DNA of 64,000 bases from Jannaschia rubra (GTDB taxonomy: Bacteria > Pseudomonadota > Alphaproteobacteria > Rhodobacterales > Rhodobacteraceae), in NCBI RefSeq assembly GCF_001403735.1, contig NZ_CXPG01000014.1:258001-322000 (forward strand), read 5' to 3'. Each line of letters begins with the position of its first letter. The stretch's first letter is position 1. The notes under the pieces are model-generated. The model saw nothing but the letters and a program-made list of their open reading frames with translations, did no database searches and had not been told where the DNA came from. Made by a program: the position numbers and the translations under genes. Of this stretch, positions 8,554-51,768 are shown in pieces.

Positions 8554-9450
8554 ATGTCCCCCCTTCCCCGAATGTCACGCGTCGCCTTGCGATGGGCCAT
8601 GCCCCGTCTGCGCCACCTGCCGTCCCGGCCGAGCGAGCCCCTGTTCGTCATCGGATCAGGTCGCAGCGGCAACACACTGGTTCGCCGGGTTCTCATGGCC
8701 TCGGGCCAGATCTACATCCCGCCCGAAACCTATGTGCTGGGCGACATCATCGAAGGCTGGCCCCAGTCGGCTTTGCTGCCTTGGCGGGAACGGGTCTGGC
8801 TGTTTTGCGCGCACTTCGAGAAACACCCTCACTTCGATACCTTCGACCTGCCGAACCTCAACGCTTTCGCGGCCGAGGCGGAAGCGATGGAAGACCGCCG
8901 CCTGCGCCCCCTGATCGACGCGCTGTTCCACTTTCTGACGCGCGCGGCCGGGTCGGAGGCGCCACGTTGGGGTGACAAGACGCCTTGGAACGCATTTCAC
9001 CTGCCCGCCATCGGCCAGACCTTTCCGCGCGCGCAATACCTCTGGCTGATTCGAGACGGGCGCGACGTGGCACGGTCCTACGCGAAAGCCGGGCTGTTGC
9101 GAGACTTTGCGGCCGGTGCGCAGCGTTGGATCACGAACAACCAGGCCTGCGAGGCCTTCGGCCGCTGGACACCGAACCTGCGCCCATTGCGATATGAGGC
9201 GCTGGTGCAGGACCCGGAGCGCGAGATGGCCGGCGTCTTCGACTGGGCCGGACTTGAATTCGACCCCGCCATGCTGGAGGCCCCCGTCGGCCCCATGGGC
9301 GACGTCGAACGCGAGGCGCATCACGCGAACGTCACCGCACCCATTTCGGATACTTCCGTCGGGCGTTGGCGCGACGACGTCTCGGAGGAGGATCTGGCGG
9401 CAGCGCCGGAAGATTTCGCCGCCATGCTGGCGCGCTTCGGCTATGACTGA
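8554..9450 (+). CDS. sulfotransferase family protein
   Basis: The 298-residue protein carries a sulfotransferase 5'-phosphosulfate-binding loop, GSGRSGNT (residues 34-41), followed by a helix, and a 3'-phosphate-binding block LIRDGRDVARSY at about 167-178, the two hallmark PAPS sites. The family moves sulfate from PAPS to a hydroxyl or amine. A GGAG ribosome site sits 6-7 bases before the ATG, and it follows the glycosyltransferase by 11 bases, so it is likely cotranscribed with the exoK operon. It is one of six sulfotransferase-like genes in this window. Acceptor unknown; the polysaccharide is the obvious candidate. Confidence 0.82.
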   Translation: MSPLPRMSRVALRWAMPRLRHLPSRPSEPLFVIGSGRSGNTLVRRVLMASGQIYIPPETYVLGDIIEGWPQSALLPWRERVWLFCAHFEKHPHFDTFDLPNLNAFAAEAEAMEDRRLRPLIDALFHFLTRAAGSEAPRWGDKTPWNAFHLPAIGQTFPRAQYLWLIRDGRDVARSYAKAGLLRDFAAGAQRWITNNQACEAFGRWTPNLRPLRYEALVQDPEREMAGVFDWAGLEFDPAMLEAPVGPMGDVEREAHHANVTAPISDTSVGRWRDDVSEEDLAAAPEDFAAMLARFGYD

Positions 9451-10601
9451 AGGTCGAGCTGCGGAGCGATCCTGTCGTCGATGAACTTCAGCAGCTTGCG
9501 GCGATAGGCCTCGGGGCTGAACTCCTCCGCAACCCGCTGGGCCGCCGCGGTCGCCAGCCGGTCGCGCAGCGCGCCGTCGGCCAGCAATTCGGAAAGCCCC
9601 CGCGCCATGTCCACCTCGTCCGGCGCGACCAGCATGGCTATGTCGTCGTCCAGCACCTGCGTATGCGTCGGCAGCCGGGTCGCGAGCAATGGTCTGCCAC
9701 TGTCGAGATAGGAATAGACCTTCATCGGCGTGTTGCGCCCCTGCGTTCGGGGAGAGGCGACGACGGTGGCCTGACGCAGGTAATCCCCGATCCGCTCCAC
9801 CGGGCGGGGGCCGAGGAACGTGACGCGGTCGCCCGCGCCGAGATCGCGCGCCAGATCGCGGTGCGCCGCGATATGCGCCTCGGTGCCGCCGATGACGACG
9901 AGCCGTCCTTCGGCTCCCCCGGCCACGGCACGGGCGAACCCCCGGATCAGAAGGTCCACTCCCTGATAGCCCTCCAGATTGCCGACATACATCACCACGG
10001 GTTCGGGAAACAGGCAGTCGTCGGGCATGGGCCCCGGCTCCGCGATCAGTGTCACGTCTTCCAGCGTCTGCACCGGCAGGCCGGGGGCATAGCCCTCGAC
10101 CGTCTCCTGCAGGGCGCGGCAGCAGGTGATGGCGCCGATGCTGGCACGGGCGGCGCGGGCCTCGACCGCCGCGATGGCGCGGCGGATCCGGGGGGGCAGG
10201 CCGAACTTGTCGTCCATCTGCTCGGGGATCGAGCTGTCCATGTCATAGACGTAGGGCACGCCGAACAGGGGTTTCAGCGCCATGGCGATGAAGGCCGCTT
10301 CCTCGACCGCGATGATGAGGTCGTAGCGGTCGCGACGGAGGCGGCGGATCGCGGCGGCCATCATCCCCGCATCGGCCACGACCTTCTTGCCCGAGAAGCC
10401 GGGCGGCATGTTCCGCGTTCCGGGCAGCGCAGGAACCCGGAAGATGCGGCAGCCGTCGATCTGCGGATCCTCGCCCTCGGCCAGCACCAAGGCGTCGCAG
10501 GCATGGCCCGCGCCGGTAAGCACTTGCAACAGGGCGCGCACCGCGATGGGTGTGCCGCGCGGCACGAAGAACGGCTGGGGCGCGAGGACGAGGATCCTCA
10601 T
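9441..10601 (-). CDS. GT4 family glycosyltransferase
   Basis: The 386-residue GT-B enzyme opens with MRILVLAPQPFFVPRGTP, the N-terminal loop of GT4 enzymes. Its C-terminal donor domain has VVMYVGNLEGYQGVD, VTFLGPRP and TQGRNTPMKVYSYLDSGRP, followed by ATRLPTHTQVL. The usual E-x7-E is replaced by the N-x-P-x-K-x-Y-x-Y-L-x-S-G-x-P form seen in several GT4 subfamilies. Four bases overlap the methyltransferase downstream of its start (10598-10601). The 3' end overlaps the convergent sulfotransferase by 10 bases. Confidence 0.82.
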   Translation of the reverse strand: MRILVLAPQPFFVPRGTPIAVRALLQVLTGAGHACDALVLAEGEDPQIDGCRIFRVPALPGTRNMPPGFSGKKVVADAGMMAAAIRRLRRDRYDLIIAVEEAAFIAMALKPLFGVPYVYDMDSSIPEQMDDKFGLPPRIRRAIAAVEARAARASIGAITCCRALQETVEGYAPGLPVQTLEDVTLIAEPGPMPDDCLFPEPVVMYVGNLEGYQGVDLLIRGFARAVAGGAEGRLVVIGGTEAHIAAHRDLARDLGAGDRVTFLGPRPVERIGDYLRQATVVASPRTQGRNTPMKVYSYLDSGRPLLATRLPTHTQVLDDDIAMLVAPDEVDMARGLSELLADGALRDRLATAAAQRVAEEFSPEAYRRKLLKFIDDRIAPQLDLQS

Positions 10602-11335: not shown

Positions 11336-11493
11336 CCAAAGGGTCCGAGTCCGTGAAATCTCTGCTTCTGAGAACGAATCGGACGCTAGCACGGTTTCAC
11401 GCCCGTCGTGTGGCCTTTGCAGGGCCTTGACGTGGACAGCCCCTCGGCCCTACGCCCCATCTGCCCTGCGCCTGTCGCGCCGTCCGGAGGCGC
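11336..11493. promoter_or_regulatory. divergent intergenic region, methyltransferase / flippase
   Basis: These 158 bases separate two divergent EPS genes and should contain promoters for both. I see no palindrome or recognisable regulator site that I can support, and no open frame with a start signal. Confidence 0.35.
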
Positions 11494-12915
11494 ATGAGCA
11501 AGACCTTCCTCATCAACGTCGGATCGCTGAGCGCGTCGCGTCTGTTCCTGGCCGCGTCACAGGTTCTGGTCCTGCCCTTCGTGGCGCGTTTCCTGTCGCC
11601 CGCCGACTTCGGGGACATGGCCCTCGCCATGGGCGTCGTGGTCTTTGCGCAACTGCTGAGCGATGCGGGTCTGGGCCGGTCGCTCATCCGCCAGCCGAAA
11701 CTGGATCCGGCGGAATGGAACAGCGTGTTCTGGATGCTTGCAGGCGTCGGCGCGGCGCTGATGCTGGTGCTGGTCGCCGTGGCGCCGGTCTGGGCCGCGC
11801 TGTTCGACCGGGCGCGGCTGCTGCCGCTGGTGGCGACGCTCGCGGTGCTTCCGCTTCTGGGGGCGCTCGCGGCCGTGCCCACCGCGCGGATGGAACGCGA
11901 CGACCGGTTCCCCGCGCTGTCGCTGATGCGGACGGTCGCGGGGCTGGCGGGCATCGCCGTGGTGCTGGTGTCGGCGGCGATGGGGGCGGGGGTCTGGGCG
12001 CTGGTGGCGCAACAGGTCGTGCTGGCCGCCACGCAGACCGCGATGGCCGCGGCGATGAGCCGGTTCCGCCCCGGTGCGCCGCGTGGCTTCACTCCGCTGG
12101 GCCATCACCTGCGGTTCGCGGCCGACAACATCGGCACCTCGCTTCTGTTCACCGGCCAGACGCAGGCGCCGGTTATGATTTTGGGCTACATCCTGGGGGC
12201 CGCGCCGCTGGGCCTGTTCTCGATGGCGCAGCGGTTCCTCACGCTGCCGCGCACGGGGCTGGGCGGGCCGATCGCGCAGGTGGTCTTCGTTCGGATGGCC
12301 GCACGACAGGCCGACCCAGGCGCGGTGGCGGACCTCTATCTGGCAAGCTGCCGGGTGCTCGCGTTCCTCGTGATCGTGCCGCTCGCCGTGCTTGCGGGCG
12401 CGGGCGAGACCCTGTTCCCCTTCCTCCTGTCGGACCGCTGGGCCGCGGTTGCGCCCGTCTTCGCGCTGGCCGCGCCCGGCATCGCCATCGAGATCGCCAC
12501 CTCCACCGCCGGGGTTATGTTCCAGGCCCTCGACCGGACGCGGCTCAGGCTGCGGATGGCGGTGGAGCGCATGGTGCTGCGCACGCTCGCCGTGGCCGCC
12601 GCGGCGCCCTTCGGGCTGGAGGCGGTGGCGCTGGCCATCACGCTGTTCTCGCTCGCCTACACCCCGCGCTACCTGGCCTGGGCCAACCGCGCCGCGCCGA
12701 TCGCCCAGACGGCGATCTGGCGCGCGATGGCCGCACCCGCGGCTGCGGGCGGCCTTGCCTGGGGCGCGCTCTGGATCGCCGCCGGGCGCCTCGACGGGGC
12801 CCAGACCCTGGCGGCGACCGTTGCCGTGCTGGCGCTGGCCTGGAGTGTGCTGGTCCTGTTGGACAGGCGGAACCTCAGGGCGGCGATGAGCGCGCTGAAG
12901 GGCGGCTTTTCCTGA
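11494..12915 (+). CDS. MOP-family polysaccharide flippase (Wzx/ExoT-like)
   Basis: The 473-residue, strongly hydrophobic protein has about 12-14 predicted helices. The N-terminus is typical of the polysaccharide transport family (LFLAASQVLVLPFVARFLSP, then FGDMALAM), and the middle has APVMILGYILGAAPLGLFSMAQRF. Such proteins flip undecaprenyl-linked repeat units to the periplasm for a Wzy-type polymerase, and an ExoQ-like polymerase is encoded 6.5 kb downstream. The family is WzxC/ExoT-like by general pattern. It is monocistronic or first in its unit, with a 173-base gap after it. Confidence 0.86.
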   Translation: MSKTFLINVGSLSASRLFLAASQVLVLPFVARFLSPADFGDMALAMGVVVFAQLLSDAGLGRSLIRQPKLDPAEWNSVFWMLAGVGAALMLVLVAVAPVWAALFDRARLLPLVATLAVLPLLGALAAVPTARMERDDRFPALSLMRTVAGLAGIAVVLVSAAMGAGVWALVAQQVVLAATQTAMAAAMSRFRPGAPRGFTPLGHHLRFAADNIGTSLLFTGQTQAPVMILGYILGAAPLGLFSMAQRFLTLPRTGLGGPIAQVVFVRMAARQADPGAVADLYLASCRVLAFLVIVPLAVLAGAGETLFPFLLSDRWAAVAPVFALAAPGIAIEIATSTAGVMFQALDRTRLRLRMAVERMVLRTLAVAAAAPFGLEAVALAITLFSLAYTPRYLAWANRAAPIAQTAIWRAMAAPAAAGGLAWGALWIAAGRLDGAQTLAATVAVLALAWSVLVLLDRRNLRAAMSALKGGFS

Positions 12916-12956
12916 CCTTCGCTTCCCGTTCGGTGAACTTCCTGTTGCCTAGCGAT

Positions 12957-18441: not shown

Positions 18442-19220
18442 CTCCGAGCCGTCCGCCGGAGCGTCATCTGTTCCGCCAGAACCGCCAGCGTGCCGCGGCG
18501 ATCGCCGAATACGGTCGGCTGGCTCTCCAGCGTCATCAGCCTGCGAGCGAGATCGGTCGCCGGACGCTCCGGGTCGAGAAGGCCGGGCAGTAGGAAGCCG
18601 AAACGGCCCACGTCCTCCTCGCTGTCGGGAACCGGAAGGGGGTCGGTACCCGGCAGGACAGGTGCCGCATCGAACAGCCGGGGGCGCGGCCAGGCTGGCG
18701 GCCGTCCCGCGTTGTCGCCGAGCAGAACGCCGGGCATGCCATGGCCGACCAGTTCCGCCACACGCCCGCCACGGCGGCCCAGCCATTTGCCAAGGCCCCA
18801 GGGCAGAATGGCGGGCGTGCCCTGCGACCGCAGGGCCTGCAGGATTTCAGCCACCGGACGCCCGTCCGAGAACCGGACCCGCGTGGCCGATGCGAGCACT
18901 TCGATCCCCTCGACGCTGACGATCTGGCGCCCGGCGATCAGGGTCAGTTCCCGCCCGGCGCCATCCGCGGCAATCAGCGCGGCCGGGTCCTGCGGCAGCC
19001 TGCGGGTATGCCAGCCACCCAGGGCCATCCTGCCGGACGCAAGCGCACCGAAGGCTCCGTCCCGCGACGTCTCGGTCAGCAGCAGGCAGAAGGCCACGGC
19101 CCCCGGCGCCGCATGGCGCATGTTGCGATGCGCGGCGTCGAAGACGCGCGCGGCCTCCATGCCGGGATAGAGGTGGACATGGCCGTCCACCGCCGTCTCG
19201 TCGCCCGTCGTCGGTTCCAT
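18438..19220 (-). CDS. HxH-motif hydrolase-like protein, unknown specificity
   Basis: The 260-residue protein starts METTGD-like at the ATG at 19220, behind a clear AGGGGG ribosome site, and soon shows VDGHVHLYPG. That His-x-His pair on a first beta-strand is the metal-binding opening of amidohydrolase and PHP-type hydrolases. Later blocks (LPWGLGKWLGRRGG, GVLLGDN, LPVPDSEEDVGRFGF) look conserved, but I cannot link them to a characterised family. The four-base overlap with glpD implies a shared pathway. A role such as releasing or handling a glycerol- or phosphate-linked compound is speculation. Confidence 0.6.
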   Translation of the reverse strand: MEPTTGDETAVDGHVHLYPGMEAARVFDAAHRNMRHAAPGAVAFCLLLTETSRDGAFGALASGRMALGGWHTRRLPQDPAALIAADGAGRELTLIAGRQIVSVEGIEVLASATRVRFSDGRPVAEILQALRSQGTPAILPWGLGKWLGRRGGRVAELVGHGMPGVLLGDNAGRPPAWPRPRLFDAAPVLPGTDPLPVPDSEEDVGRFGFLLPGLLDPERPATDLARRLMTLESQPTVFGDRRGTLAVLAEQMTLRRTARR

Positions 19221-19367
19221 CCCGCCCCCTCGTCCGGCATCGGCCTTTCCGGTCGATCCGCCGCACCATGTGGCCGACCCGACGGGCACGTCAATTGTCG
19301 GCGCCGTCGAAATGCTGTGGAATCCGGCGATCAAAGAGTATCAGGTGGGCGCAACGAAAGGTGGACC

Positions 19368-37075: not shown

Positions 37076-37084
37076 GGTGCCGCC

Positions 37085-38302: not shown

Positions 38303-38431
38303 GGATGCCCCTCCCCCCGGAAAACGTCGCGGGATTCATGACCATCCCCCGTGCGTCAGGACAAGTCCCCCTGTGCCCGTTGCGCCACCTCCCGCGAGGT
38401 TTTGCCGGGGCGATGGCGGCTTCCACTCGTC

Positions 38432-38459
38432 TTGCGGGGCAGAAATGGCACAATATACG
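38432..38459 (+). promoter_or_regulatory. candidate sigma-70-type promoter for the deacetylase operon
   Basis: TTGCGG and TATACG hexamers are separated by 16 bases, in the 182-base divergent region between sqdB and the PIG-L deacetylase. The -10 region is the most AT-rich spot there. The distance to the ATG at 38485 leaves a short leader. Confidence 0.28.
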
Positions 38460-38484
38460 GGCATCTGAATTCAGCGGGCGGCGC

Positions 38485-40127: not shown

Positions 40128-40131
40128 AGTC

Positions 40132-41112
40132 TCAGCCCTCGAAACCCTTCCAGACCCTCGACAGATTGCGCCCCAGAAGGTCGGACAGGCCGGCGTTCCG
40201 GGCCGACAGGTGCTGCGTCAGATAGGCGGCGGTGTCGGCCCGCATCGGCGGCGGCCGAACGGCCGTCAGAAGACGCGGGTTGACGCGGTGGAACCAGTTG
40301 TACTCCAGCTTGTTGCCGATCTTCTGGCGCAGGCCGGAGCGCTTGCCCATGTGGTTGCGATAGCGCCCCGCCACGATTCGCCGCCCGATCCGATTGGCCA
40401 TGCGGTGCAGGCGCGGCTTCTGGGGATAGGTGCTGCGGTTGAACCAGGTCTGCGCGTCCGACAGGGTCATGCGGGGCACGCCCAGGTAGTCGGTCACGTC
40501 GTCGATGGACCCCTGCTTGTCGCGGGTGAAATCCTCGAAGACCTGCACCTTGACCTGATCGCGCCCGAAGCTCGCCAGATAGCGGCGCAGGTGCGGCGCA
40601 TAAGTGGAGCCGAGGATGATCGAGCTATGCTCCGTCAGCGCCTCCTCGAAGGAACAGGCGAGCCGCGCGGTGCGGATCAGGTGCCAGTACTGCGAATAGG
40701 CCCGCTGCACGGGATCGCGCAGCAGGAAGATCATCTTGACCTCGGGCAGGAGCGAATGGATGCGCTCAGGCGCCGCAGCCGAGAACAGATAGGTCGTCGA
40801 ATCCTCGCCCACCGCCTGCGCGTCGCGGAAGGGCGCGAACCGCGACGCATACCATTCCAGGCTCTGCGGTGCGGTTTCCCGGACGTCGAACCATTCGAGC
40901 CGGCCGTCCTCGACGAAGAGGAAATCGGGATGGACGATGGGGTCGTCGGCGTCGAAGAAGGCAATCTCGTTGTCGGGCAGACCGATGTCGGGGTGTTGGC
41001 CCAGAATGAAATGCAGCGACGTCGTCCCGCATTTCGGCGCGCCGCCGATGATGAAGTCGGGAAGCCGAACCCCGTGGTCCCCGGACAGGTCGTGCATGGT
41101 CGCCATCTCCAT
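40132..41112 (-). CDS. sulfotransferase
   Basis: The 326-residue protein has a classic PAPS 5'-loop GGAPKCGTTS (about 23-32) and the 3'-phosphate-binding block FLLRDPVQRAYSQYWH, with GEDSTTYLF between them. That is the heparan-sulfate-sulfotransferase-like arrangement (Sulfotransfer_1/NodH type). It moves sulfate from PAPS, probably onto a sugar hydroxyl. I start it at the ATG at 41112; an ATG at 41106 and a TTG at 41166 are alternatives. It is divergent from a second sulfotransferase across 190 bases. Confidence 0.86.
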   Translation of the reverse strand: MEMATMHDLSGDHGVRLPDFIIGGAPKCGTTSLHFILGQHPDIGLPDNEIAFFDADDPIVHPDFLFVEDGRLEWFDVRETAPQSLEWYASRFAPFRDAQAVGEDSTTYLFSAAAPERIHSLLPEVKMIFLLRDPVQRAYSQYWHLIRTARLACSFEEALTEHSSIILGSTYAPHLRRYLASFGRDQVKVQVFEDFTRDKQGSIDDVTDYLGVPRMTLSDAQTWFNRSTYPQKPRLHRMANRIGRRIVAGRYRNHMGKRSGLRQKIGNKLEYNWFHRVNPRLLTAVRPPPMRADTAAYLTQHLSARNAGLSDLLGRNLSRVWKGFEG

Positions 41113-41302
41113 GGAAAACTCTGTCTTTTCGATGTCGGGCCAGGCATGAGCGGGTCCGTCATGCAATCGTCGGGATACCTTTCCGCACTGCTTGGCCGTT
41201 CGCCGTCAAATGAATCGCGCCGAGCCCGTGCGAATCCATGGAGCCGCCGGTCCGACACCGTTAGGGTAGGCGCAAATCCGATGGATGTTCGCGAGGGAGC
41301 CG
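41113..41302. promoter_or_regulatory. divergent intergenic region between two sulfotransferase genes
   Basis: The region is 190 bases long and must hold promoters for both directions. A GAGGGAG ribosome site at its right end serves the ATG at 41303. I see no clear regulator palindrome. Confidence 0.4.
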
Positions 41303-42196
41303 ATGACCGGACCGTTTGAGCCGATACATGCCGACCCGGCCGCGCCTGTCCGCGCGGGTCTGGTGAACCTGCTGGGCATCGGGGCGCAGAAATGCGCCTC
41401 GTCCTGGCTTCACGCCGTCGCGGCCTCGCACCCCGAAATCGGTGTGGCCGATCCGAAGGAGGTCGATTTCTTCAGCTATCGTTTCGACCACGGCTATCGC
41501 TGGTACGAGGAGCATTTCCGTCGCTCCGCCGACAGGCCGGTGCGGTTCGAGAATTCGCCGTCCTACTTCCACGACCCCCGCGCGCCCGGCCGCGTCCATG
41601 CCTACAACCCCGACATGCGGATCGTGCTGCTGCTGCGCGACCCGGTCAGACGCGCCATGTCGAACCACGTCCACGAGATCATCAAGGGCCACATCCCCAC
41701 CCTGCCGTTCGAGGATGGGCTGGCCAACAACCCCGCCTATGTCGAACAGGGCCGCTATGGCACCCATCTCGTCCGTTGGCACGACGTCTTCGGTCCCGAC
41801 CGGATGCTGGTGATGTTCGCCGAAGACGTATCGGCGGACCCTTCGGCGGCAGCCAGGCGGCTGTTCGAATTCGCCGCAGTGGACGCGGATTTCGACAGTC
41901 CCATCCTGCGCGAGCGGCGCAACGACAGCGACAGGGCCCGCCTGCCGGCCTTGCGCGCGGGGCTTCGCGCGGGCGGCGACTGGCTGCGCCGGCAGGGGAT
42001 GGAGCCGCTCCTGGCACGGGTGAAGCGGACCGGGCCCATCGACTTCCTACTGCGCGCCAACCGGGTCGAGATCCGCGACGAGATCCCGCCCATGCGCCCC
42101 GAGACGGCGGAGATGCTGGTTCATACCTTCGCGCCCGAGATGGCGGAGCTCAAGCGCATCCTCGGGCGGGAGACCCTGCCGTGGGAGGGGCGATGA
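41303..42196 (+). CDS. sulfotransferase
   Basis: The 297-residue protein has the 5'-loop GIGAQKCASSW (25-35), the motif KEVDFFS typical of the family's lid, and the 3'-phosphate block VLLLRDPVRRAMSNHVHE. GRYGTHLVRW and the C-terminal MRPETAEMLV are also family-like (Sulfotransfer_1/heparan type). I chose the ATG at 41303, just behind GAGGGAG, over an ATG at 41285. It is coupled by ATGA to exoL, so it likely sulfates an EPS intermediate or product. Confidence 0.85.
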   Translation: MTGPFEPIHADPAAPVRAGLVNLLGIGAQKCASSWLHAVAASHPEIGVADPKEVDFFSYRFDHGYRWYEEHFRRSADRPVRFENSPSYFHDPRAPGRVHAYNPDMRIVLLLRDPVRRAMSNHVHEIIKGHIPTLPFEDGLANNPAYVEQGRYGTHLVRWHDVFGPDRMLVMFAEDVSADPSAAARRLFEFAAVDADFDSPILRERRNDSDRARLPALRAGLRAGGDWLRRQGMEPLLARVKRTGPIDFLLRANRVEIRDEIPPMRPETAEMLVHTFAPEMAELKRILGRETLPWEGR

Positions 42197-43311
42197 CCCG
42201 CAGGCGGTTGCTCGTCTTCGGGTTCGACGCGGCCGAGGCAGCGCAGCGGCGACGCATCCGGGCCTATCTCGACTGCGGCTTCGACGTTCTGGGCTTCACC
42301 ATGCGCCGCGCGAACATGACGCATGACGCGGCCCCCTTCTGGGACAACGTTGATCTGGGCCTGACCCGCAACGCGGCCATGGGCCAGCGCCTGAGTGCCC
42401 TTGCCCGCGCGCTGCCGATCCTGTGGCGCAACCGGAGGCGGATGCGGGGCGCGGAGACGATCGTGGCACGCAACCTCGACATGCTGGTCCTCGGGGCAGC
42501 CGCGCAGGCAATGGTGCGGCCGCGCCCGCGGTTGATCTACGAATGCCTCGACATCCACGGCCTGATGACCGGCTCCGGCCCCGCTTCCCGCGCCGCGCGG
42601 GGGCTGGAACGCCGGCTTCTGTCGCGGGTCTCGGCCCTCGTCGTGTCCTCACCCGCGTTCCAGCGGGAGTACTTCGGCCCCGTGCAGGGATGGACCGGCG
42701 ACACCCGGCTGGTCGAGAACAAGCTCTGGACGGGCCCGGATGGCCCCGCGCGGCCGTCGCCTGACGTCACGCCCCGCACCGGCCCCATCGTGCTCGGCTG
42801 GGTCGGAACGCTGCGCTGCCCGCAGAGCCTCGACCTTCTGGCGCAGGTGGCGGCGCGGATGGGCGACCGGGTGCGGATCAGGATGCACGGCATCGTCCAC
42901 CATCACGCCCTTCCCGACTTCGACGCGACGCTCGCCGCGCATCCCAACCTGTCGTTCCATGGCGCCTATGCCTATCCGGGCGGGTTGGAGGAGATCTATC
43001 GCGACTGCGACGTCGTCTGGGCGCAGGATCTCTGGCAGTGGGGGACCAATTCGACCTGGCTTCTTCCCAACCGCATCTATGAGGCCGGGTTCTTCGGCTG
43101 CCCATCCATCGCCGTGGCCGGCACCGAGACGGGGCGCCGGGTCGAGGCGGGGCTGGGCTGGACGATCCCCGCGCCCGAGGCAGACGCGCTGGTGGACCTG
43201 CTGACACGGCTCGACCGTCCCGCACTCGACGACCGCCGCCGGGCGATCCTGCGGATGCCCGCCTCCCACTTCCGCCAGAGCGCGGAGGAGATCGGCGCCT
43301 CAGTGACCTAG
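42193..43311 (+). CDS. exoL: ExoL-like glycosyltransferase (GT-B)
   Basis: The 372-residue protein has RPRLIYECLDIHGLMTG, LERRLLSRVSALVVSSPAFQREYF and LVENKLW, a set I associate with ExoL (beta-1,4-glucosyltransferase step of succinoglycan). The C-terminal donor lobe has LGWVGTLRCPQSL and FHGAYAYPGGLEEIY, and ends with NRIYEAGFFGCPSIAV. It is translationally coupled to the upstream sulfotransferase and overlaps the convergent epimerase by four bases. The name rests on recalled family motifs, so treat the sugar specificity as likely, not certain. Confidence 0.75.
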   Translation: MTRRRLLVFGFDAAEAAQRRRIRAYLDCGFDVLGFTMRRANMTHDAAPFWDNVDLGLTRNAAMGQRLSALARALPILWRNRRRMRGAETIVARNLDMLVLGAAAQAMVRPRPRLIYECLDIHGLMTGSGPASRAARGLERRLLSRVSALVVSSPAFQREYFGPVQGWTGDTRLVENKLWTGPDGPARPSPDVTPRTGPIVLGWVGTLRCPQSLDLLAQVAARMGDRVRIRMHGIVHHHALPDFDATLAAHPNLSFHGAYAYPGGLEEIYRDCDVVWAQDLWQWGTNSTWLLPNRIYEAGFFGCPSIAVAGTETGRRVEAGLGWTIPAPEADALVDLLTRLDRPALDDRRRAILRMPASHFRQSAEEIGASVT

Positions 43312-44231
43312 GTCAGCGCGGTCTGTTCCCGCACCCAGTCCCAGGTCTCGGCGATGCCGTCCTCCAGCGCCATTTCGGGCTGCCAGCCAAAGGTCCGCCG
43401 AGCCTTGCCGCTGTCGAGCACGATACGCGGCACGTCGAAATCGCGTCCCGGTTGGCGTACCGGATCGAGCCTGCGTCCCGTGACGCGGGCCACGATGTCC
43501 AGGATCTCGGCGACCGATGTTCCCCGCCCGCTGCCGGCGTTGAAGACGCCGGTCGTCGGCCGCTCCAGCGCCGCCACGCAGAGCGCAGCCATATCGCGAA
43601 CATGGAGGTAGTCGCGCACCACGCTGCCATCGCCCCAGACCTCGATCGGCGCGTTGCGGGACAGACGCCAGAGAAGGGTCCCGATGATCCCCTGCACGCC
43701 GGTGCGCCCCTGCCGCGGGCCGTATGGGTTCGCGGCGCGCAGCACCGCGTAGTCCAGCCCGTGAAGCCGGTGGTCCATGTGAAGGTATTTCTCGATGGCG
43801 ACCTTGACGATGCCATAGGACGTCACCGGCCGCAGGGGGTGATCCTCGCCCACCGGGTCGGTTTCGGGGACGCCATAGACCGTGCCGCCGGAAGACAGAT
43901 AGACCATCCGCCGCACGCCCGCCTCGCGCATCACCTGAAGCAGCCGGACGGTCCCGATGAGGTTGCCGGCGATGTCCCCCTCGGGGTCGAGGTTCGACGT
44001 CGCGGGAACCGTCGTGCTGGCGAGATGGACCACGGCGTCCATGCCGGACAGGCTGCGAGCTAGCACGTCGGCCTCGGCCATGTCCCCGATGACGTAGTCC
44101 ACCCCGTCCACCGGCGCACGAAACGCCTCCGGCCGCCGGCTCAGCACCCGCACTTCCCCGCCTGCGGAAACGAGGCTGTCCACCACATGCGACCCGATGA
44201 AGCCGCAGCCGCCGATGACGAGGGTTTTCAA
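43308..44231 (-). CDS. NAD-dependent sugar epimerase/dehydratase (GalE-like SDR)
   Basis: The 307-residue protein has VIGGCGFIGSHVVDSL, the catalytic region YLSSGGTVYG, SYGIVK (YxxxK) and RAANPYGPRQ, the pattern of GalE/UDP-glucose 4-epimerase-like extended SDRs. It probably supplies a nucleotide sugar for the locus. It is on the minus strand after an Stf0-type sulfotransferase with a 25-base gap. It could equally be a dehydratase or 4-reductase. Confidence 0.8.
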   Translation of the reverse strand: MKTLVIGGCGFIGSHVVDSLVSAGGEVRVLSRRPEAFRAPVDGVDYVIGDMAEADVLARSLSGMDAVVHLASTTVPATSNLDPEGDIAGNLIGTVRLLQVMREAGVRRMVYLSSGGTVYGVPETDPVGEDHPLRPVTSYGIVKVAIEKYLHMDHRLHGLDYAVLRAANPYGPRQGRTGVQGIIGTLLWRLSRNAPIEVWGDGSVVRDYLHVRDMAALCVAALERPTTGVFNAGSGRGTSVAEILDIVARVTGRRLDPVRQPGRDFDVPRIVLDSGKARRTFGWQPEMALEDGIAETWDWVREQTALT

Positions 44232-44256
44232 GGGGCGACCTCCCGGTCCGAAAGGG

Positions 44257-44976
44257 TCATGTCAGGCTGAAGAGGTCCGCGAGGAACCTCCGTCTCATCG
44301 CCTCGTTGCGCTGGCTAGGCATCTTCGAGAGGTTTCTGTCCTTGTCCGGCGAACCCACACGCAATCCGCGATCCCTCGCCCAGGCCATCAGATCGCCTTG
44401 GTCGTAGTCTTCATAGGTAATGACCTTGGCGTTAATGGACGCTTCCCGAAACAGTTCCGACCAGAAAAGGGTCTGGCCCTGTATCGAATGCCACTCGGTC
44501 AGAAGCTGTTCGAAATCGTATTCCACCTCCGGGACCGCCGTCGCGTGGCCTTCGAGACGGGAGGCGCCCGGAACGAACCCCGTGTTCCGGCGGACGACAT
44601 GATAGACCCCGCTGCGGCGCGCTAGAAAATGGCTGATGGCCTGCGCCACCGTGTCCCGGCGGCGGACCCACAGCCAGTCGGCATCACGGAACGCCGATCG
44701 AAAGAATGGAAAGGGTCCTTGTGACAGCGGAGCCGTGAAGGCGGAAAGGCGGCAGTCGATCGTTCGCATCTGGTTGGCCATGACCTTGACCGCCAGGATC
44801 CCGTTGCGGGAGGCCGTTTCCCGCAGGTTATCGAGTGCCCTTCTCCAGTCCCTGTCTTCCTCCAGCGTCCACGGCAAGAAATGCTCTTCGGGCCGGCCGA
44901 GGCCCAATCGCTCCATGTCCTCGCAGACCATCGTCGATCCGCTTCTCTGGGTGGCGCAGACGACGATCGTTCTCAT
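44257..44976 (-). CDS. Stf0-type sulfotransferase
   Basis: The 239-residue protein has VVCATQRSGSTMVCEDM (5'-phosphosulfate loop TQRSGST) and the Stf0-specific LGRPEEHFLPW block, with WVRRRDTVAQAISHFLARR as the 3'-phosphate site. Stf0 of mycobacteria sulfates trehalose at the 2-position. This is the family, not the proven substrate. It is coupled by a four-base overlap to the neighbouring sulfotransferase-like gene at 44973-46046, so the two are probably made together. Confidence 0.84.
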   Translation of the reverse strand: MRTIVVCATQRSGSTMVCEDMERLGLGRPEEHFLPWTLEEDRDWRRALDNLRETASRNGILAVKVMANQMRTIDCRLSAFTAPLSQGPFPFFRSAFRDADWLWVRRRDTVAQAISHFLARRSGVYHVVRRNTGFVPGASRLEGHATAVPEVEYDFEQLLTEWHSIQGQTLFWSELFREASINAKVITYEDYDQGDLMAWARDRGLRVGSPDKDRNLSKMPSQRNEAMRRRFLADLFSLT

Positions 44977-46046
44977 GTCGGCACCTCCGATCCGGCGCTT
45001 GCCGCAGTCGCCAGGTCGCGCAGCAGGCCCGAAATGGGGTCGGCCGGGTCGAGGTTGCCGAGCGTGGCCGACAGTATCTGTGCCGCGCGGGCGTTGATCC
45101 CGCCATCGGTCGCCGTCGTGTAGGATTCGCCGTCAACGGACGGCGTGACGAAATGGCGATCATGGAATCGCGCCGCATCGGTCAGCTCCATGTCGCCGAA
45201 AGTGGACAGGAGCGCGATGTTCTCTCCCCGGTATCGCCGCTCGATGTGCCGGATCGTCTCTTGGTCGAGCATCCGGATGTTCACGGAGCGATACTCGGCC
45301 GGCACGGCGTCAACGATGGCACTATAGGTCTGGTTGACGTCCCGGCCTTCCATCAGATGCGGGTTCGACCGGAGGACATGGAGGATCGAATGGTCGAAGC
45401 TCGCATTCTCATGCAGCGGTGTCCCGGGCAGGATGTCATCCGCCCCGAACGACGAAAAGAAGTCTGACTCGGGGCGCCCGCCCAGGAGGACCTCGGGGAT
45501 GAGGGGGGTGACGCGCACCCGGCTTTCGGGAAGGGCGGATTGCCAGGCCTTCGCCTTTGCAAAGAAGTTCGGCTCACCGGAATGGAGACAGTTTTCCACG
45601 AAGGTCGTCAGGGGCTTGCCCCTTGGTATCTCGAACTGCTTCCAGGCCGAAACGATCCAGGCCGCTTGCGGGCGAAAGTAGAGCCGCACCTCGACTTCGA
45701 AAATGTCGTCGAGCCCCAGAAACAGACGCGGACAGTCCCGTCCGGCCAGGTTCTCGGCACTCAGGATCAGGGTCTCGGGAACCGTCGGGAGGTCGCCGTG
45801 CGGCGCATCGGCAACGACCTCCGCAATCTGCGCGCTCAGTAGCGCACCAGTCTTTCGTGCCGCCTCGACATGCCAGATCGGCATACCGACCGCCGTGGCG
45901 GGATCGATGTTCATGTTCCGGTCGAAGCAGTATATTCCGCGCTCCGCCAGCGGCTGCCTCTCCTGCGACAGGGCGACCTGGATGGAGGTGCTGGCGCACT
46001 TCGGGAACCCGGCGTGAAGGATGATCCTGGGCGTCCTCCGGCTCAT
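44973..46046 (-). CDS. sulfotransferase-like protein
   Basis: The 357-residue protein opens with IILHAGFPKCASTSIQVAL, a PAPS 5'-loop variant (PKCASTS), and continues with a Rossmann-like alternation. The downstream RDPV-type 3' block is less clear (YFRPQAAWIVSAWKQF), so catalytic activity is less certain than for the others. It starts at the ATG at 46046, overlapping the large GT stop by ATGA, and itself overlaps the Stf0 gene. It is the middle of a four-gene coupled run 51768-44257. Confidence 0.72.
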   Translation of the reverse strand: MSRRTPRIILHAGFPKCASTSIQVALSQERQPLAERGIYCFDRNMNIDPATAVGMPIWHVEAARKTGALLSAQIAEVVADAPHGDLPTVPETLILSAENLAGRDCPRLFLGLDDIFEVEVRLYFRPQAAWIVSAWKQFEIPRGKPLTTFVENCLHSGEPNFFAKAKAWQSALPESRVRVTPLIPEVLLGGRPESDFFSSFGADDILPGTPLHENASFDHSILHVLRSNPHLMEGRDVNQTYSAIVDAVPAEYRSVNIRMLDQETIRHIERRYRGENIALLSTFGDMELTDAARFHDRHFVTPSVDGESYTTATDGGINARAAQILSATLGNLDPADPISGLLRDLATAASAGSEVPT

Positions 46047-49000
46047 CCTGCCGCCCGCCGCCACGTCCGCGCCCCCAGGTCGTCGTAGAGCGCGGCATAC
46101 CTGTCGACCATCTTCGCCAGCGTGAAATCCTCCTCGAACCTGGCGCGGGCGCGGGCGCCCATCGTGGTTCGCAGGTCGGGGTCGAGAAGGCGCCGGGTGG
46201 CGGAGAGCAGGGCCCCGGTGTCGATGCCGCTGTCGGTCAGGGGCACCAGCAGGCCGCCTGCCTCCGGGCCGGTGCCGACGATGGCGGGGATCTCTCCGAT
46301 GGTGCTGGCGACGACGGGCAGCGACTTCGCCATCATCTCGAGCAGGACAAGGGGCAGGGACTCGCCCACGAAGTAGCTTGGCAGAAGGCCGATGTCGGCC
46401 ACGGCGAGGTAGTCCTGAAGGTTCGCGACCTGCCCCATCAGATGCACATGGTCGGCTGCGCGGGCCTCGACCTCGGCCGCCATGGCGCCTTCGCCGATCA
46501 GCATGAGGTCGACGGCATGGCCTTCGGCATTCATCGCCTCGGTCAGATCGACCGCCTCGGCCCAACCCTTGGACGGAAGCGCGCGCGAGGCGAGGCAGAG
46601 CACCACCGCGTCGGGCCGGAGCCCCAGCGTCGCGCGGTCGAGCGGGGGTGCCGCGACATCCTCGGCCATGCCGTTGGGAATTCGCAGCAGGGTCTCGGGT
46701 CGGCCGTGACGATCGAAGACGGCCAGGTTCTTGGCAGCAGTATGGACCCAGGCGTTCGCACGCGCCTTCATCCGGTCCAGCCGGGCGGCGAAATCGGGCA
46801 CCACGGTCGGATGGGCCAGCAGCGTCTCGTGACAGCCGTGCATGGTGATGACCCAGGGCAGCGCGTCGGGAAGGTCGGCGGCGCAGCTTTCGACCATGGC
46901 GTCGGACCACCAGATGCTCGACTGGATGACGTCGACGTCGTGGCGGGCGACGATCTCCGGCAGGGTCGCGCCGGGGTCGCCCGCGGTCACGAACATGACG
47001 CCCGGATCGATCTTCGACACGACGGCCGGATGCGCGGGCTGGTTGGCCACGTCGAACAGGATCGCGATGCCGCCCCGCCGGACCCATTCGTTGGCGAGCG
47101 AGATGGAGAATACCTGCCCCCCGCCTGGCGAAAGGTCGGGCGCCACCACCAGAAGCGTGGGCATCGCCTTGGCCTGCGGACCGGGGTCCGGCAGGGCCTG
47201 CGGATCGGTCACGCCGAACCGCTCGACGTCCTGCGCAAGGAAGCGGGCGATGCGGGCCTTTGCGTCCGGCCCGCGGCGATAGTGTTGCCCAAGATAGGCC
47301 CGCACCTGCGCCAGTTCCTCGAAATAGCCGGTGGACCCTTCCATCCGGTGCGTCACGGTCCGGTCGTGGCGGCGGTGAAAGTTCATCGCAGCCGCCGAAA
47401 AGCCGACCCGTCCGCCCCGCATCGCGCGGACATAGAAGAACCAGTCGCCGCACAGCCGCATCCGGGTGACGCGATCGACGAAATCGGCGTCCGGCACGAA
47501 GCGGCGCAACAGCACCGCGCTGGCGTTCGGAATGGTGTTGGCGATGCCCAGCCCCCCGTTCGCCTCCTCATGGTCGGTGGCGACGAAATCGGCGTCCCAC
47601 CGGCCGGGGGCGATGCGGTCGAGGTAGATGGGGCGGTAGTCGCCGATCACCGATCCGTCGGCCCGCACCGGCACAGACGCACAGGACGCCAGCCGCATGT
47701 TGCGGTCGTCGAACATCGGGACGAGCGTCGCCAGAAGGTCGGGGGTGCAATGATCGTCCGCCTCGGCCAGCCAGACCACGTCGGCCTGCGCCATTTCCAT
47801 CCCGCGCAGCCATTGCGCGAAGGGCGAGCCCGAGTTGCGCTCGCCCAGAACGACGCGAGTGCCCGGCCGGGTCTCGGCGAAGTCCTCCAGCAGCGCGGCC
47901 GAGCCATCGGACGAGGCATCGTCCAGCAGGATGACCTCGAAATCCTGGAAGGTCTGGCCCGCGATGCTCCGCAACCGTTCGGGCAGATAGGCTTCGTAGT
48001 TGTAGTTCGGGACCACCACGCTCACCTCGGGCGCCAGCCCGGCGACCCGGCGCAGATGGTCGAGCAGCCTGGGCCCGGCCGTGGCGACGGTATGGCCGCG
48101 CGCGACCTGGGCCTGCCCCGCGGCACCGGCGGCCCGGCGGGCCTCCGCGTCCGCGGCATAGGCGGCAACCGCGGCCGCCATCGCCTCCGTGTCCATGAAG
48201 GGGACGGCCACGCCGCTGCCCGACGTCACGAAACCGGCGATGCCCCCCGCGCCCTCGAAACAGACGATAGGCACCGCAGCCTGCGCGGCATAGAGCGCGA
48301 CGAGGGGGAACGGGTCCTCTTCGGACGGCAGAAGGAAGACGTCCGCCCCGGCAAGGCGGGCGGGCACGTCGGCCTCGTATCCGGTGAAACGCACGAGGTG
48401 TTCGATGCCCCGGTCGCGGACCATCTGCCGGCAGGCCTTCTCGTCGGGACCGCCGCCCAGCCAGACGAAGCGGGCCTCCACCCCCATGTCGCGCAGACGC
48501 TCCGCCGTCTCGACGAACTTGTCGGGCGACTTGCGCCAGTGCAGCGTGCCGCATCCCATGACCAGAAACGCGTCTTCCGGCACGTCGAGCGCGAAGCGCG
48601 CGGCGCGGCGACGGGCGAGGGCGATGTCGGGATCGAACTCTGACCCATTCTCCACAAAGCTCGCCGCGGCGGTCAGGCGGGTGGGGTCGAAGCCGTGACC
48701 GTCGCGCAGCGCCGCCGCCACCTCCGGCCCGCCGGCGATGACGTGGTCCGCGCGGTCGCGGATCAGGTCGATCTGGCCGGGAAACAGCGCCAGAACCCGG
48801 TCCAGCTCGTGCAGGAAGGCGACGCTGGGCGTGGGTTTCGTCCAGTAGCGATAGAAGTTTCCGCTGGCGACAGAGTTGACCAGGATCGCGCGCACGTCAT
48901 CCCCGGCCCAGGCGGCGAGCGCCTCGGCCCGGTCTTCCTCCGCATGATCGGACAGCACGATCAAGGGGGCCACCTTCTCAAAGGCGGAGCGCAGGTTGCC

Positions 49001-49993
49001 ACCGCCCATGGCGACGATGCCCACCGAGAATCGCGTCGACCTTTGAAGCCACTCCGCGAGGATCCTGACGACGCGCGGCGCGCCGCCTACCTCCGTTTCA
49101 TGCGTCACGAGGAGGATGCGCCCCCGCTGCCCCGCTTCGGTCAGGTCGGGCATCGCGACAGGGGGCGCGGCGGCGGTAAGCATTCGGTAGAGCGGCGCCT
49201 GGTCCGCCCCCTCCTCCGGCGTCGGTCCGGACTGCACATCGGGGTGCGGCGCAAGCCCCTCGCGCCACCCGTGATCGAGGTAGTGCGACAGCGGCTCGAT
49301 ATCCCGCGCCACGGTGTCGAGATGGCGATCCTGATACCAGCCTGCATCGAACAGCGGATGGGGCGACCGGCCTTCTTTCCAGCCGGTCTCGACATAGTGC
49401 CGCCATGCGTCGCAGCCATCGATGTCGGCATATCGGCGACGGTACCACTCCGCATCGAACAGGGGATGCGGGCTGCGGCCTTCGCGCCAGCCGGTCTGGA
49501 GGTAGTAGCCGAACGGCTCCACATCCGCCAACCGAAGATCGGGATGACGGTCGAGATACCACTCGAGATCGAACAGGGGGGCGGGCCGGCAGCCCGATTT
49601 CCAACCCTCCCGCAGGTAGTGCAGCCAAGGGTCCGCATCGGCGGCCAGAACCTCCGCGTGCCGCATCAGGTACCAGGCCGGATCGAACAGAGGATGGGGC
49701 GACAGCACCGCCCGCCAGCCGCGCGACAGATAGTGGCTCAACGCCTCCTTACCGTCGATGTCCTCACCCGGCAGGCCGGCAGCGACCTGCGCTGCATACC
49801 ACTCGGCGTCGAACACCGGATGCGGCGCGCGTCGTTCCCGCCAGCCGTCGGACAGGTAGTGCGCCAGCGGATCAAGGCCGCCATCCCGGACGTCCGCGTA
49901 TCTGTCGAGATACCAGTCACCCCGGAACAGCGCCTTCGCCACGTCGGACATGCCACCCGGCACCGCCAGCGGCGACCGGTCGGGGCCGGTCAT
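46043..49993 (-). CDS. trimodular glycosyltransferase (GT4-GT2-GT4) with N-terminal WY repeats
   Basis: The 1316-residue protein has, in order: six tandem repeats of about 36-40 residues (about 15-255), each F-D-x-x-W-Y ... H-Y-L/V-x-x-G-W-x-E-x-x-x-P-x-P; a GT4 domain (about 290-640, LLVTHETEVGGAPRV, YVG-like GCGTLHWRKSP and PSEEDPFPLV); a GT2 domain (about 655-885, VVPNYNYEAYLPERL, DDASSDGSA and AEADDHC); and a second GT4 (about 945-1300, VVAPDLSPGGGQVFS and ESLPLVLLEMMAKSLPV). One polypeptide could therefore add several sugars in sequence. It overlaps the coiled-coil sulfotransferase upstream and the sulfotransferase-like gene downstream by ATGA. Confidence 0.85.
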   Translation of the reverse strand: MTGPDRSPLAVPGGMSDVAKALFRGDWYLDRYADVRDGGLDPLAHYLSDGWRERRAPHPVFDAEWYAAQVAAGLPGEDIDGKEALSHYLSRGWRAVLSPHPLFDPAWYLMRHAEVLAADADPWLHYLREGWKSGCRPAPLFDLEWYLDRHPDLRLADVEPFGYYLQTGWREGRSPHPLFDAEWYRRRYADIDGCDAWRHYVETGWKEGRSPHPLFDAGWYQDRHLDTVARDIEPLSHYLDHGWREGLAPHPDVQSGPTPEEGADQAPLYRMLTAAAPPVAMPDLTEAGQRGRILLVTHETEVGGAPRVVRILAEWLQRSTRFSVGIVAMGGGNLRSAFEKVAPLIVLSDHAEEDRAEALAAWAGDDVRAILVNSVASGNFYRYWTKPTPSVAFLHELDRVLALFPGQIDLIRDRADHVIAGGPEVAAALRDGHGFDPTRLTAAASFVENGSEFDPDIALARRRAARFALDVPEDAFLVMGCGTLHWRKSPDKFVETAERLRDMGVEARFVWLGGGPDEKACRQMVRDRGIEHLVRFTGYEADVPARLAGADVFLLPSEEDPFPLVALYAAQAAVPIVCFEGAGGIAGFVTSGSGVAVPFMDTEAMAAAVAAYAADAEARRAAGAAGQAQVARGHTVATAGPRLLDHLRRVAGLAPEVSVVVPNYNYEAYLPERLRSIAGQTFQDFEVILLDDASSDGSAALLEDFAETRPGTRVVLGERNSGSPFAQWLRGMEMAQADVVWLAEADDHCTPDLLATLVPMFDDRNMRLASCASVPVRADGSVIGDYRPIYLDRIAPGRWDADFVATDHEEANGGLGIANTIPNASAVLLRRFVPDADFVDRVTRMRLCGDWFFYVRAMRGGRVGFSAAAMNFHRRHDRTVTHRMEGSTGYFEELAQVRAYLGQHYRRGPDAKARIARFLAQDVERFGVTDPQALPDPGPQAKAMPTLLVVAPDLSPGGGQVFSISLANEWVRRGGIAILFDVANQPAHPAVVSKIDPGVMFVTAGDPGATLPEIVARHDVDVIQSSIWWSDAMVESCAADLPDALPWVITMHGCHETLLAHPTVVPDFAARLDRMKARANAWVHTAAKNLAVFDRHGRPETLLRIPNGMAEDVAAPPLDRATLGLRPDAVVLCLASRALPSKGWAEAVDLTEAMNAEGHAVDLMLIGEGAMAAEVEARAADHVHLMGQVANLQDYLAVADIGLLPSYFVGESLPLVLLEMMAKSLPVVASTIGEIPAIVGTGPEAGGLLVPLTDSGIDTGALLSATRRLLDPDLRTTMGARARARFEEDFTLAKMVDRYAALYDDLGARTWRRAAG
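49117..49957 (-). repeat. six degenerate protein repeats (W-Y / G-W motif)
   Basis: The N-terminal repeats of the large glycosyltransferase are each about 36-40 residues, with conserved WY, HYL and GW-x-E-x-x-x-P-H-P positions. They probably form a helical scaffold or a carbohydrate- or protein-binding surface. Nucleotide identity between units is moderate, so this is an old repeat, not a recent expansion. Boundaries are approximate. Confidence 0.7.
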
Positions 49994-51768
49994 TTGGGCC
50001 GATCCGGCTGCGACCGGAACCAGGTGGCGAGGCGGCGCAGCGGCGCCGTGACCCGCCAGGACCTGCTTTCGAGGATCGCGCGGTAGCGGGCGTGCAGCGC
50101 CGCGTTCCGTCGCCGCTGGTCCTCCTCCGCGCGCGCGGCGCGGCGACGCTGCGCGGCGTTGTCCAGCGTTTCCTGACGTGCCGTGGCCAGGTCGCGCTCC
50201 AACTGCTCCGCGCGGGTCTCATGCTCCGCACGGGCCCGGCCCAGCCGGTCCTCCAGTTCACGTCGGCCCGCGGCATCGGCCTGTGCCTTCTGGCGAGCGG
50301 CCGACAGGTCGGCTTCCAAAGCCGCGATCCGGGCCTTGTTCGTCGTCTCGCGCTTCGCAACCTCCCGCGTGGCTTCCCCCGCGCGGGTCACGTCGGCTTC
50401 GAGCGCGGCAATCCGCGCGTCCATCCCCACACGCGTCCGGGCCAGCGTTTCCGCAAGCTCCCGCCGCATCCGTTCCTCCGTCCGCGCCCGGTCGAGCCGC
50501 GCATCGCGCGCCACCTGCCCGACCTCGGCGGCGAGCCTGTCGCGTTCGGCCGTCAGCGCGGCAAGCGAGACTTCCAGATCTGCCACGCGGGCCGCGTTCT
50601 CGGCGTTCTGGCGCCCGACGTCCTCGGTCTCGTGCTGGCGCTGGATCAGAGCGCTTTCGATCTGGGCCTTCTCGTGGCGCAGGGTCTCTGCCGCACGGGT
50701 TGCGGCCTCGGCCTCCTCGGCGTGCCGCTGCCTCAGGGTGGCGACCGTCTCGCGCAGTCCGGCCGTCTCCTTCTCCGCCGCTGCACCTCTGGCTTCGCCT
50801 TCTTCGGCGCGGCGCTCCAGTTCCGCCAGCGTCTCGGCCTGCCGGGCCCCTTCCGCGGTCAGGCGTGCGGCTTCTCCACTGGCCTTGCGCGCGGTGCGGA
50901 TCAGGCCGCCGAACATCGGCGCGGCGGCGTTGAAATCCGCTCGGATGCCGTCGAGCGTCTCGCGGTCGCCGGGGGCTTCGCCTTCGTCGGCCCAGCGTTC
51001 CAGGATCGCATAGGTATCGCGCACCCAGGACGACAGGAACGGATCGCCGATCACGCGATGAGGGTCGGTGCGGTGGTTCCTCAGATCGGTGCTGAGGAAC
51101 TCGTCGACCTCGGTCGCGACCGTCTCGGACCAGCGCGGAAATGAAACGCCGAGCGCTTCCTGCACGGCGAGCATCGTCGCGCCCCAGTTGCCGAGCAGCC
51201 GGTCATAGCTGATGACATGCCGCTTGAGCCCCCGAGACCCATTCTCGGCATCGAGCACGTGACGGAGCCAGAGCAGCAGACCATAGGCGAAGGGCCATCC
51301 CTCCCGATGCTCGAGCGAGGCGGCGACCTCCACCGGATTTCGGTGGATCAGCAGGCACGCAGGCTCGATCCCCGCATCGTCCAGCAAGCGCCGCCAGAAC
51401 GGCATCAGCCGACAGATGCGCGGGTCCTTCATGACGGGGAGGCCGGAGTCGCCGAATTCCTCGTCCAGCACACTCAAGCCTCTTGGCAGAAACTCCTCGG
51501 CCCGATGCGAGCCGATCCAGCCGGGGTTGAACGCCTGCCAATCGTCCCAGGACGATCCGGCCGAGGCCAGCACCGCGTCGTTCAACTGGCAGATCGGGAT
51601 CGATTCGTAGTATCCCTTCCGGTTGTCGGGGTTGGCGGGCATCAGCGTCCGCGGCAGGTCACAGCCGAGAAGGCCCATCACCCCCGAAGTGGCAGAGGTT
51701 CCCGACCGGTGCATGCCGAGACAGAGAATGGCGGTGCGCTGGTCGGGGGGGGAATCGGATCGGGGCAT
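49990..51768 (-). CDS. sulfotransferase with long C-terminal coiled coil
   Basis: The 592-residue protein has an N-terminal sulfotransferase domain (AILCLGMHRSGTSATSGV, then RKGYYES, with a later HRNPVEVAASL block). From about 310 to 570 it is an Ala/Glu/Arg-rich coiled coil, followed by the C-terminal motif ILESRSWRVTAPLRRLA. That SWR-x-T-x-P-L-R motif recurs at the end of many glycosyltransferase- and sulfotransferase-associated coiled-coil proteins. I start it at the ATG at 51768. Overlaps with the triple GT imply a complex, perhaps with the coiled coil as scaffold. Confidence 0.8.
   Translation of the reverse strand: MPRSDSPPDQRTAILCLGMHRSGTSATSGVMGLLGCDLPRTLMPANPDNRKGYYESIPICQLNDAVLASAGSSWDDWQAFNPGWIGSHRAEEFLPRGLSVLDEEFGDSGLPVMKDPRICRLMPFWRRLLDDAGIEPACLLIHRNPVEVAASLEHREGWPFAYGLLLWLRHVLDAENGSRGLKRHVISYDRLLGNWGATMLAVQEALGVSFPRWSETVATEVDEFLSTDLRNHRTDPHRVIGDPFLSSWVRDTYAILERWADEGEAPGDRETLDGIRADFNAAAPMFGGLIRTARKASGEAARLTAEGARQAETLAELERRAEEGEARGAAAEKETAGLRETVATLRQRHAEEAEAATRAAETLRHEKAQIESALIQRQHETEDVGRQNAENAARVADLEVSLAALTAERDRLAAEVGQVARDARLDRARTEERMRRELAETLARTRVGMDARIAALEADVTRAGEATREVAKRETTNKARIAALEADLSAARQKAQADAAGRRELEDRLGRARAEHETRAEQLERDLATARQETLDNAAQRRRAARAEEDQRRRNAALHARYRAILESRSWRVTAPLRRLATWFRSQPDRPK

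Follow-up and report, generated by a model that had tools for sequence, protein, structure and literature searches.

Does a surface-polysaccharide region with six sulfotransferase-like genes make one multiply sulfated exopolysaccharide (EPS)? The question is raised by a 64,000-base stretch of the Jannaschia rubra genome (3.66 Mb), bases 258001-322000 of contig 14, here called the window. Its bases 1 to ~52,000 form the surface-polysaccharide region. A preliminary description had assigned all six sulfotransferases (STs), named P1 to P6 in their order along the window, to a single EPS. The comparisons reported here point to two separately inherited gene sets, apparently brought together in the region. 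A composite locus is considered reasonably probable, comprising an EPS core with P1-P3 and a laterally acquired cassette with P4-P6, which would make its own sulfated glycan. The sulfate donor, 3′-phosphoadenosine 5′-phosphosulfate (PAPS), would be supplied by a bifunctional Sat-CysC protein. This suggests that J. rubra produces sulfated polysaccharides of a type known from few bacteria.

The six ST-like open reading frames (ORFs) were all confirmed at the positions first proposed; four lie on the minus strand (Table 1). The encoded proteins look like PAPS-type sulfotransferases. In the profile check proposed earlier, P1-P4 exceeded the Pfam cut-offs, while P5 and P6 were connected with STs through family profiles only. 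These profiles were built from alignments with 21 (P5) and 17 (P6) relatives among those found. From a set of 68 loci, 42 were entered, and two of the 42 were dropped for stops and shortness. The P5 profile recovered a sulfotransferase structure in the PDB (3rnl) and, weakly, other STs. A Sulfotransfer_3 match was obtained for only 2 of the 22 P5-family members (for the P6 family see Table 1). In the P5 family, with relatives from other genera, H11, G13, K16, Q23, S96 and R125 are invariant, and S133 is conserved in at least 90%. Invariant columns of the P6 family include S22, G23, T24, S25, R143 and S151. A lack of both PAPS-binding blocks in most of the six proteins by structure prediction had been named as one observation that would overturn the assignment. 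At sequence level this is not the case: the 5′ loop and an R-x7-S block, starting at residue 107 to 167, are recognizable in all six. A model of P6 residues 1-320, based on 41 sequences, reached a mean predicted local distance difference test score (pLDDT) of 92.5. In it, the loop follows the first strand, R143 comes just past a strand and S151 falls in the following helix. Chance matches to the motifs were rejected because family profiles and residue conservation hold. The ST set is diverse, with only P2 and P3 clearly alike (27% identity, 5e-24); a recent tandem duplication of one ST was rejected on this ground.

The predicted EPS assembly machinery is complete, from a priming transferase to Wzx-, Wzy-, Wza- and Wzc-type proteins. 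A codon-model gene call yielded 54 genes in the window, 46 of which were covered by the Pfam scan. About a dozen glycosyltransferases (GTs), two GH16 proteins and an AT3-SGNH acyltransferase were detected in the region. In a second genome of the genus (G012), window genes 1-28 and 32-36 are matched at 54-82% identity in two collinear blocks, and the orthologs of P1, P2 and P3 are within the identity range of their neighbours. Because they are collinear with the core in G012, P1-P3 are assigned to the Wzx/Wzy-type EPS core, with which they would belong. P4-P6, the three-domain GT and the sqd genes described below were not found in the G012 stretches examined. The cassette epimerase is matched there only by a 30% paralog, and another Sulfotransfer_3 gene adjoins the PIG-L gene. 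Genome G007 has an EPS locus of partial similarity, which includes a P2 homolog and a P3-like gene. A second locus of G007 holds five Sulfotransfer_3 places, four of which were re-scanned, and one Stf0 place in 36 kb.

The genes for P6, a 1316-aa GT, P5 and P4 follow each other with successive overlaps of 4 bases, and an epimerase gene begins 25 bases after. The earlier statement that several ST genes overlap GT genes by 4 bases thus applies to P3 (with 42193-43311) and to P5 and P6 (both with 46043-49993); P4 and P5 overlap each other, and P1 and P2 overlap no GT. The same five cassette genes occur in identical order and orientation in a genome of another genus (G170, local GC content 50%; neighbourhood read by open frames). 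Identities to the window are 61% for the epimerase, 55% for the GT, 48% for P4 and 41% for P6. The G170 cassette is flanked by ABC-transporter, dioxygenase, S-Me-THD-like, IMPDH and RACo-like genes, and no window-type EPS genes were detected in 80 kb around it. In J. rubra the GC content of P4 (61%) and P5 (64%) is below the window gene mean of 68% (sd 2.8), which is consistent with lateral gain. Lateral acquisition of the cassette is what we infer from these comparisons.

Related associations of STs with GTs were found in further genomes. A single 1340-aa ORF of G066 (L280:7275-11294) comprises a P6-type ST, a coiled coil and GT2/GT4 domains. A P6-type relative is fused to a GT2 in G120, and the cassette-type GT has a P5-type ST alongside in G306. 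Eight P6-type neighbourhoods were chosen on strong scores or on gene context and are no random sample (from seven of the 25 genomes with a match, J. rubra among the 25, plus one more). A cassette-like GT was close to the P6-type gene in seven of these eight; the likeness was weak (43-78 bits) outside G170. A GT- or epimerase-like ORF lies within ~1.5 kb at 12 of 29 P6-family loci and at 3 of 29 P5-family loci, in some cases as part of one and the same ORF. In G256, one ORF (L281:12863-14674) combines an ST domain with an AlgX-like SGNH acetyltransferase domain.

Table 1. Features of the surface-polysaccharide region of J. rubra (window positions)
Feature	Position	Strand	Evidence and remarks
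AT3-SGNH acyltransferase	1221..2354	-	SGNH 4.9e-21, Acyl_transf_3 1.8e-18
Priming sugar-phosphate transferase (WbaP/ExoY-like)	3713..4393	-	Bac_transf 7.3e-58; WbaP model 294.6 bits, under its cut-off of 403
GH16 glycanase	5692..6441	+	Glyco_hydro_16 1.6e-31; closest solved structures are beta-glucanases (3o5s, 2e-37)
P1, ST of EPS core	8554..9450	+	Sulfotransfer_3 4.2e-27; 79% ortholog in collinear G012 block
Wzx-type flippase	11494..12915	+	Polysacc_synt_3 7.8e-59
Wzy-type polymerase	18741..20618	+	Wzy_C 7.4e-17; start uncertain, gene call starts at 19440
Wza-type export protein	25240..26508	+	Poly_export 1.4e-13
Wzc-type co-polymerase	29582..31834	+	Wzz 1.9e-09, GNVR 3.9e-10, AAA_31 1.4e-11
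sqdBDC-like operon (UDP-sulfoquinovose synthase, GT8, epimerase-like)	35466..38302	-	between the two ST sets; overlooked in the preliminary description
P2, ST	40132..41112	-	Sulfotransfer_3 9.3e-17, Sulfotransfer_1 2.3e-14; 76% ortholog in G012
P3, ST	41303..42196	+	Sulfotransfer_1 2.1e-10; 76% ortholog in G012; upstream ATG at 41285 is a possible start
GT4-type glycosyltransferase	42193..43311	+	weak Pfam GT matches under cut-off; 77% ortholog in G012; 4-base overlap with P3
NAD-dependent epimerase/dehydratase of cassette	43308..44231	-	Pfam 5.8e-54; 61% homolog in G170 cassette
P4, Stf0-type ST of cassette	44257..44976	-	Stf0 1.4e-16; 48% ortholog in G170 cassette
P5, divergent ST-like protein of cassette	44973..46046	-	no Pfam match; family profile matches 3rnl at 2.3e-12
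GT of cassette, 1316 aa (GT4-, GT2-, GT4-type domains)	46043..49993	-	Pfam; 55% homolog in G170
P6, ST domain followed by long coiled coil, cassette	49990..51768	-	Sulfotransfer_3 matched in 11 of 18 family members; model pLDDT 92.5

The source of PAPS lies outside the region. No PAPS-synthesis genes had been noticed in the window, and none was seen among its 46 scanned genes. A check of the remaining genome, as had been proposed, revealed a single APS kinase place on contig 12. The gene scores as Sat-CysC, a bifunctional sulfate adenylyltransferase/APS kinase (1038.6 bits, cut-off 669). All but one of 20 genus genomes have an APS kinase. A 700-aa Sulfotransfer_3 protein (L154:17024-19123), with TPR repeats guessed from its sequence, is encoded ~10 kb from Sat-CysC (L154:6807-8525). 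In 14 of the 15 genus genomes having such a long Sulfotransfer_3 protein, its gene is located within 17 kb of the APS kinase gene.

The operon at 35466-38302 concerns a different form of sulfur. Its SqdB-like gene product (37085-38302) matches Arabidopsis SQD1 (1qrr) at 6.3e-102 and scores 326.7 bits with the NCBIfam synthase model, under the cut-off of 575. Downstream, a GT8 (1.1e-10) and an epimerase-like protein (3.1e-14) were recognized by Pfam. The three genes stand in an order which we take to be that of the sqdBDC sulfolipid operon. The operon is best read as a predicted sulfonate pathway apart from PAPS, most readily for sulfolipid synthesis. Among named records, of which close ones may be missing, the SqdB-like protein is closest to those of Palleronia rufa (88%) and Roseivivax halodurans (86%). 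A SqdB-like gene is located near a P6-type gene in G243 (L271).

For enzyme activity, acceptor sugars, the timing of sulfation and the polymer served by each set, we infer the following scheme. The EPS core would extend over ~65-35294 and 38305-43311 and include the PAPS-dependent P1, P2 and P3. Their most likely place of action is the cytoplasm, where sulfate esters would be put on the lipid-linked repeat unit ahead of its flipping by Wzx and polymerization by Wzy. Such timing agrees with the general Wzx/Wzy scheme as outlined for synechan in the accessible part of its description (PMC8205485). The putative laterally gained cassette would cover 43308-51768 and comprise P6, the three-domain GT, P5, P4 and the epimerase. 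Its most probable role is to assemble a short glycan of its own, as a side branch or as a distinct surface glycan, and to sulfate it. The PAPS would come from Sat-CysC, encoded on another contig. A more far-reaching version is offered tentatively. The cassette may be a transferable build-and-sulfate unit, in which the STs are tethered to the multi-domain GT, the coiled coil of P6 serves as linker and sugars are sulfated during addition; in the G066 and G120 relatives, ST and GT form a single protein. If true, the cassette would represent a novel type of glycan machine in bacteria and provide a drop-in source of sulfated glycans.

Several observations weigh against the composite locus. The G012 core is divided between two contigs (at the end of one and at the start of the other), and its block of genes 32-36 lies on the opposite side of gene 1. 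P5 and P6 themselves gave no Pfam ST match, and P6 yields weak coiled-coil matches only. The P5 model, for which one relative was eligible, reached a pLDDT of 39.6; it is unusable and was not taken as evidence. The P5 of the G170 cassette is only 26% identical over 146 residues, and its P6 loop carries W in place of the usual R. Only six of the 295 genomes sampled, J. rubra among the six, have a strong homolog of the cassette GT. Across the genus, 69 of 89 Sulfotransfer_3 places have no Wza gene within 20 kb.

The original proposal, with the cassette recruited to the same assembly line and all six STs decorating one EPS, gains from their position in one 43-kb stretch and from G109 and G256, where P6-type genes have Wza or priming-transferase-like genes nearby. 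It is weakened because the cassette sits among unrelated genes in G170, away from window-type EPS genes, and because the G012 core comes with P1-P3 and, at the sites examined, without the cassette. As stated, the sulfation of a single polymer by six STs is unsupported and seems unlikely. Alternatively, the acceptors of some STs, chiefly P4-P6, would be molecules such as lipopolysaccharide, glycolipids or small glycosides, with little or no sulfate on the EPS. P4 resembles Stf0, a family whose named member is trehalose 2-sulfotransferase; P1 has a weak match to the nodulation protein NoeE, and the cassette stands alone in G170. Against such acceptors speak the collinearity of P1-P3 with the EPS core and the 4-base overlap of P3 with a GT; this explanation is likewise doubtful.

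Far less probable is a polymer whose sulfur is a sulfonate, with UDP-sulfoquinovose from the sqdBDC-like operon built into the EPS. The SQD1 homolog does lie inside the region, and the G243 arrangement brings a SqdB-like gene near a P6-type gene; yet the three genes are arranged as in the sulfolipid operon, and the corresponding G012 sites yielded no such operon. Equally remote is the view that the motifs mark remnants or moonlighting relatives without ST activity. The analyses made revealed no close relative with known activity, and P5 and P6 are below Pfam detection. The PAPS-contact motifs are nevertheless the most conserved columns in both families, and with Sat-CysC a dedicated PAPS source exists. 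The composite locus, with P1-P3 in the EPS core and P4-P6 in the cassette, is retained as the preferred reading.

The concentration of STs in the region is pronounced. Six of the 14 ST-like places of the genome are located within this 43-kb stretch, a count biased toward the window by the P5 and P6 profiles seeded from it; with the three Pfam families alone (E <= 0.001), the count is four of nine. In 20,000 random placements of 14 points, six never fell into one such stretch. Among 20 genus genomes, 20 of 89 Sulfotransfer_3 places are at most 20 kb from a Wza gene, against an expected number of at most 3.0 (upper bound). Five of 94 rows had been dropped as second pieces of ORFs already counted. 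In view of the Wza-near and the Wza-distant fractions, ST-bearing EPS loci recur across the genus, and most STs lie elsewhere or on broken contigs. P5-type genes are present in 19 of the 20 genomes, P6-type and Stf0 genes in five each, J. rubra included. The locus supplies candidate enzymes in a genus with recurring loci of this type, and it makes the question of a sulfated EPS testable by gene deletion and sulfate assay.

Other genes of the window bear on the polymer or adjoin the locus. A 1290-aa protein with GH16, GDSL lipase-like, Ig-like and RTX parts (13089-16961) is a possible candidate for a secreted EPS-trimming enzyme. A large protein with G8, a CEMIP-type beta-helix and RTX repeats (20997-24014) is encoded within the EPS locus and has a 75% counterpart in G012. 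Overlapping genes for a PIG-L deacetylase and a formyltransferase (38305-40127) suggest that an amino sugar undergoes deacetylation and formylation. Directly adjoining the cassette, denitrification-type genes are located at 52264-59687 (NorQ-type ATPase, VWA protein, Crp-type regulator, copper oxidase).

The locus had been called succinoglycan-type. The exo cluster of Sinorhizobium has in common with the window a priming transferase, Wza/Wzc-, Wzy- and Wzx-type parts, a GH16 protein and an AT3 acyltransferase. The likeness in these parts, of which the Wzx/Wzy ones are generic, is only a loose one. The J. rubra locus differs in its six STs and in an AT3 fused to SGNH. An ExoV-like pyruvyltransferase, reported missing before, was not matched among the 46 scanned genes in a search limited to the window. 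In titles and abstracts of the open-licence literature found, no ST-bearing EPS cluster from Rhodobacteraceae was reported. Salipiger mucosus presumably belongs to the same family as J. rubra. The accessible part of the work on this species reports 0.9% (w/w) sulfate, measured in an alphaproteobacterial EPS, and names no genes (PMC2953402).

The comparisons that follow rest on the accessible parts of the respective papers. The synechan (xss) cluster of Synechocystis PCC 6803 combines Wzx/Wzy and GTs with two STs of distinct subfamilies (PMC8205485). A test of the window for the parts of such a locus (Wzx, Wzy, co-polymerase, priming transferase, GTs and at least two STs) found all of them. Both clusters hold more than one ST, of distinct subfamilies; there are two in synechan and six in two modules here, where the export protein is inside the locus and the system is known from genes alone. 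The regulators XssS, XssR and XssQ are tied to cyanobacteria (PMC8205485), and no two-component or STAND-type match was seen among the scanned window genes. Sulfated capsule clusters with STs occur in Vibrio sp. KMM 8419, where three ST genes are named and one is assigned to an O-antigen part (PMC11641403), and in Cobetia marina KMM 1449 (PMC11766843). Like the J. rubra locus, both are polysaccharide clusters with STs, and the structures of their sulfated polymers have been solved; unlike it, they are ABC-transporter capsules with the PAPS genes within the cluster. Pontiella has three STs in the genome, one of them in the cluster. The wps-1 cluster of the actinobacterium Actinoplanes missouriensis resembles the window in being of Wzx/Wzy type, with STs of different families, a glycoside hydrolase and a methyltransferase (PMC13390465). 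It differs in having two STs, and an ST-GT cassette is not mentioned in the accessible text. Sulfate in alphaproteobacterial EPS and ST-bearing clusters in other bacteria are thus already known from these sources. The new points are the number of STs, the two-module origin and the ST-GT fusions in relatives, through which the locus offers new candidate bacterial carbohydrate sulfotransferases, some of them fused to GTs in related genomes.

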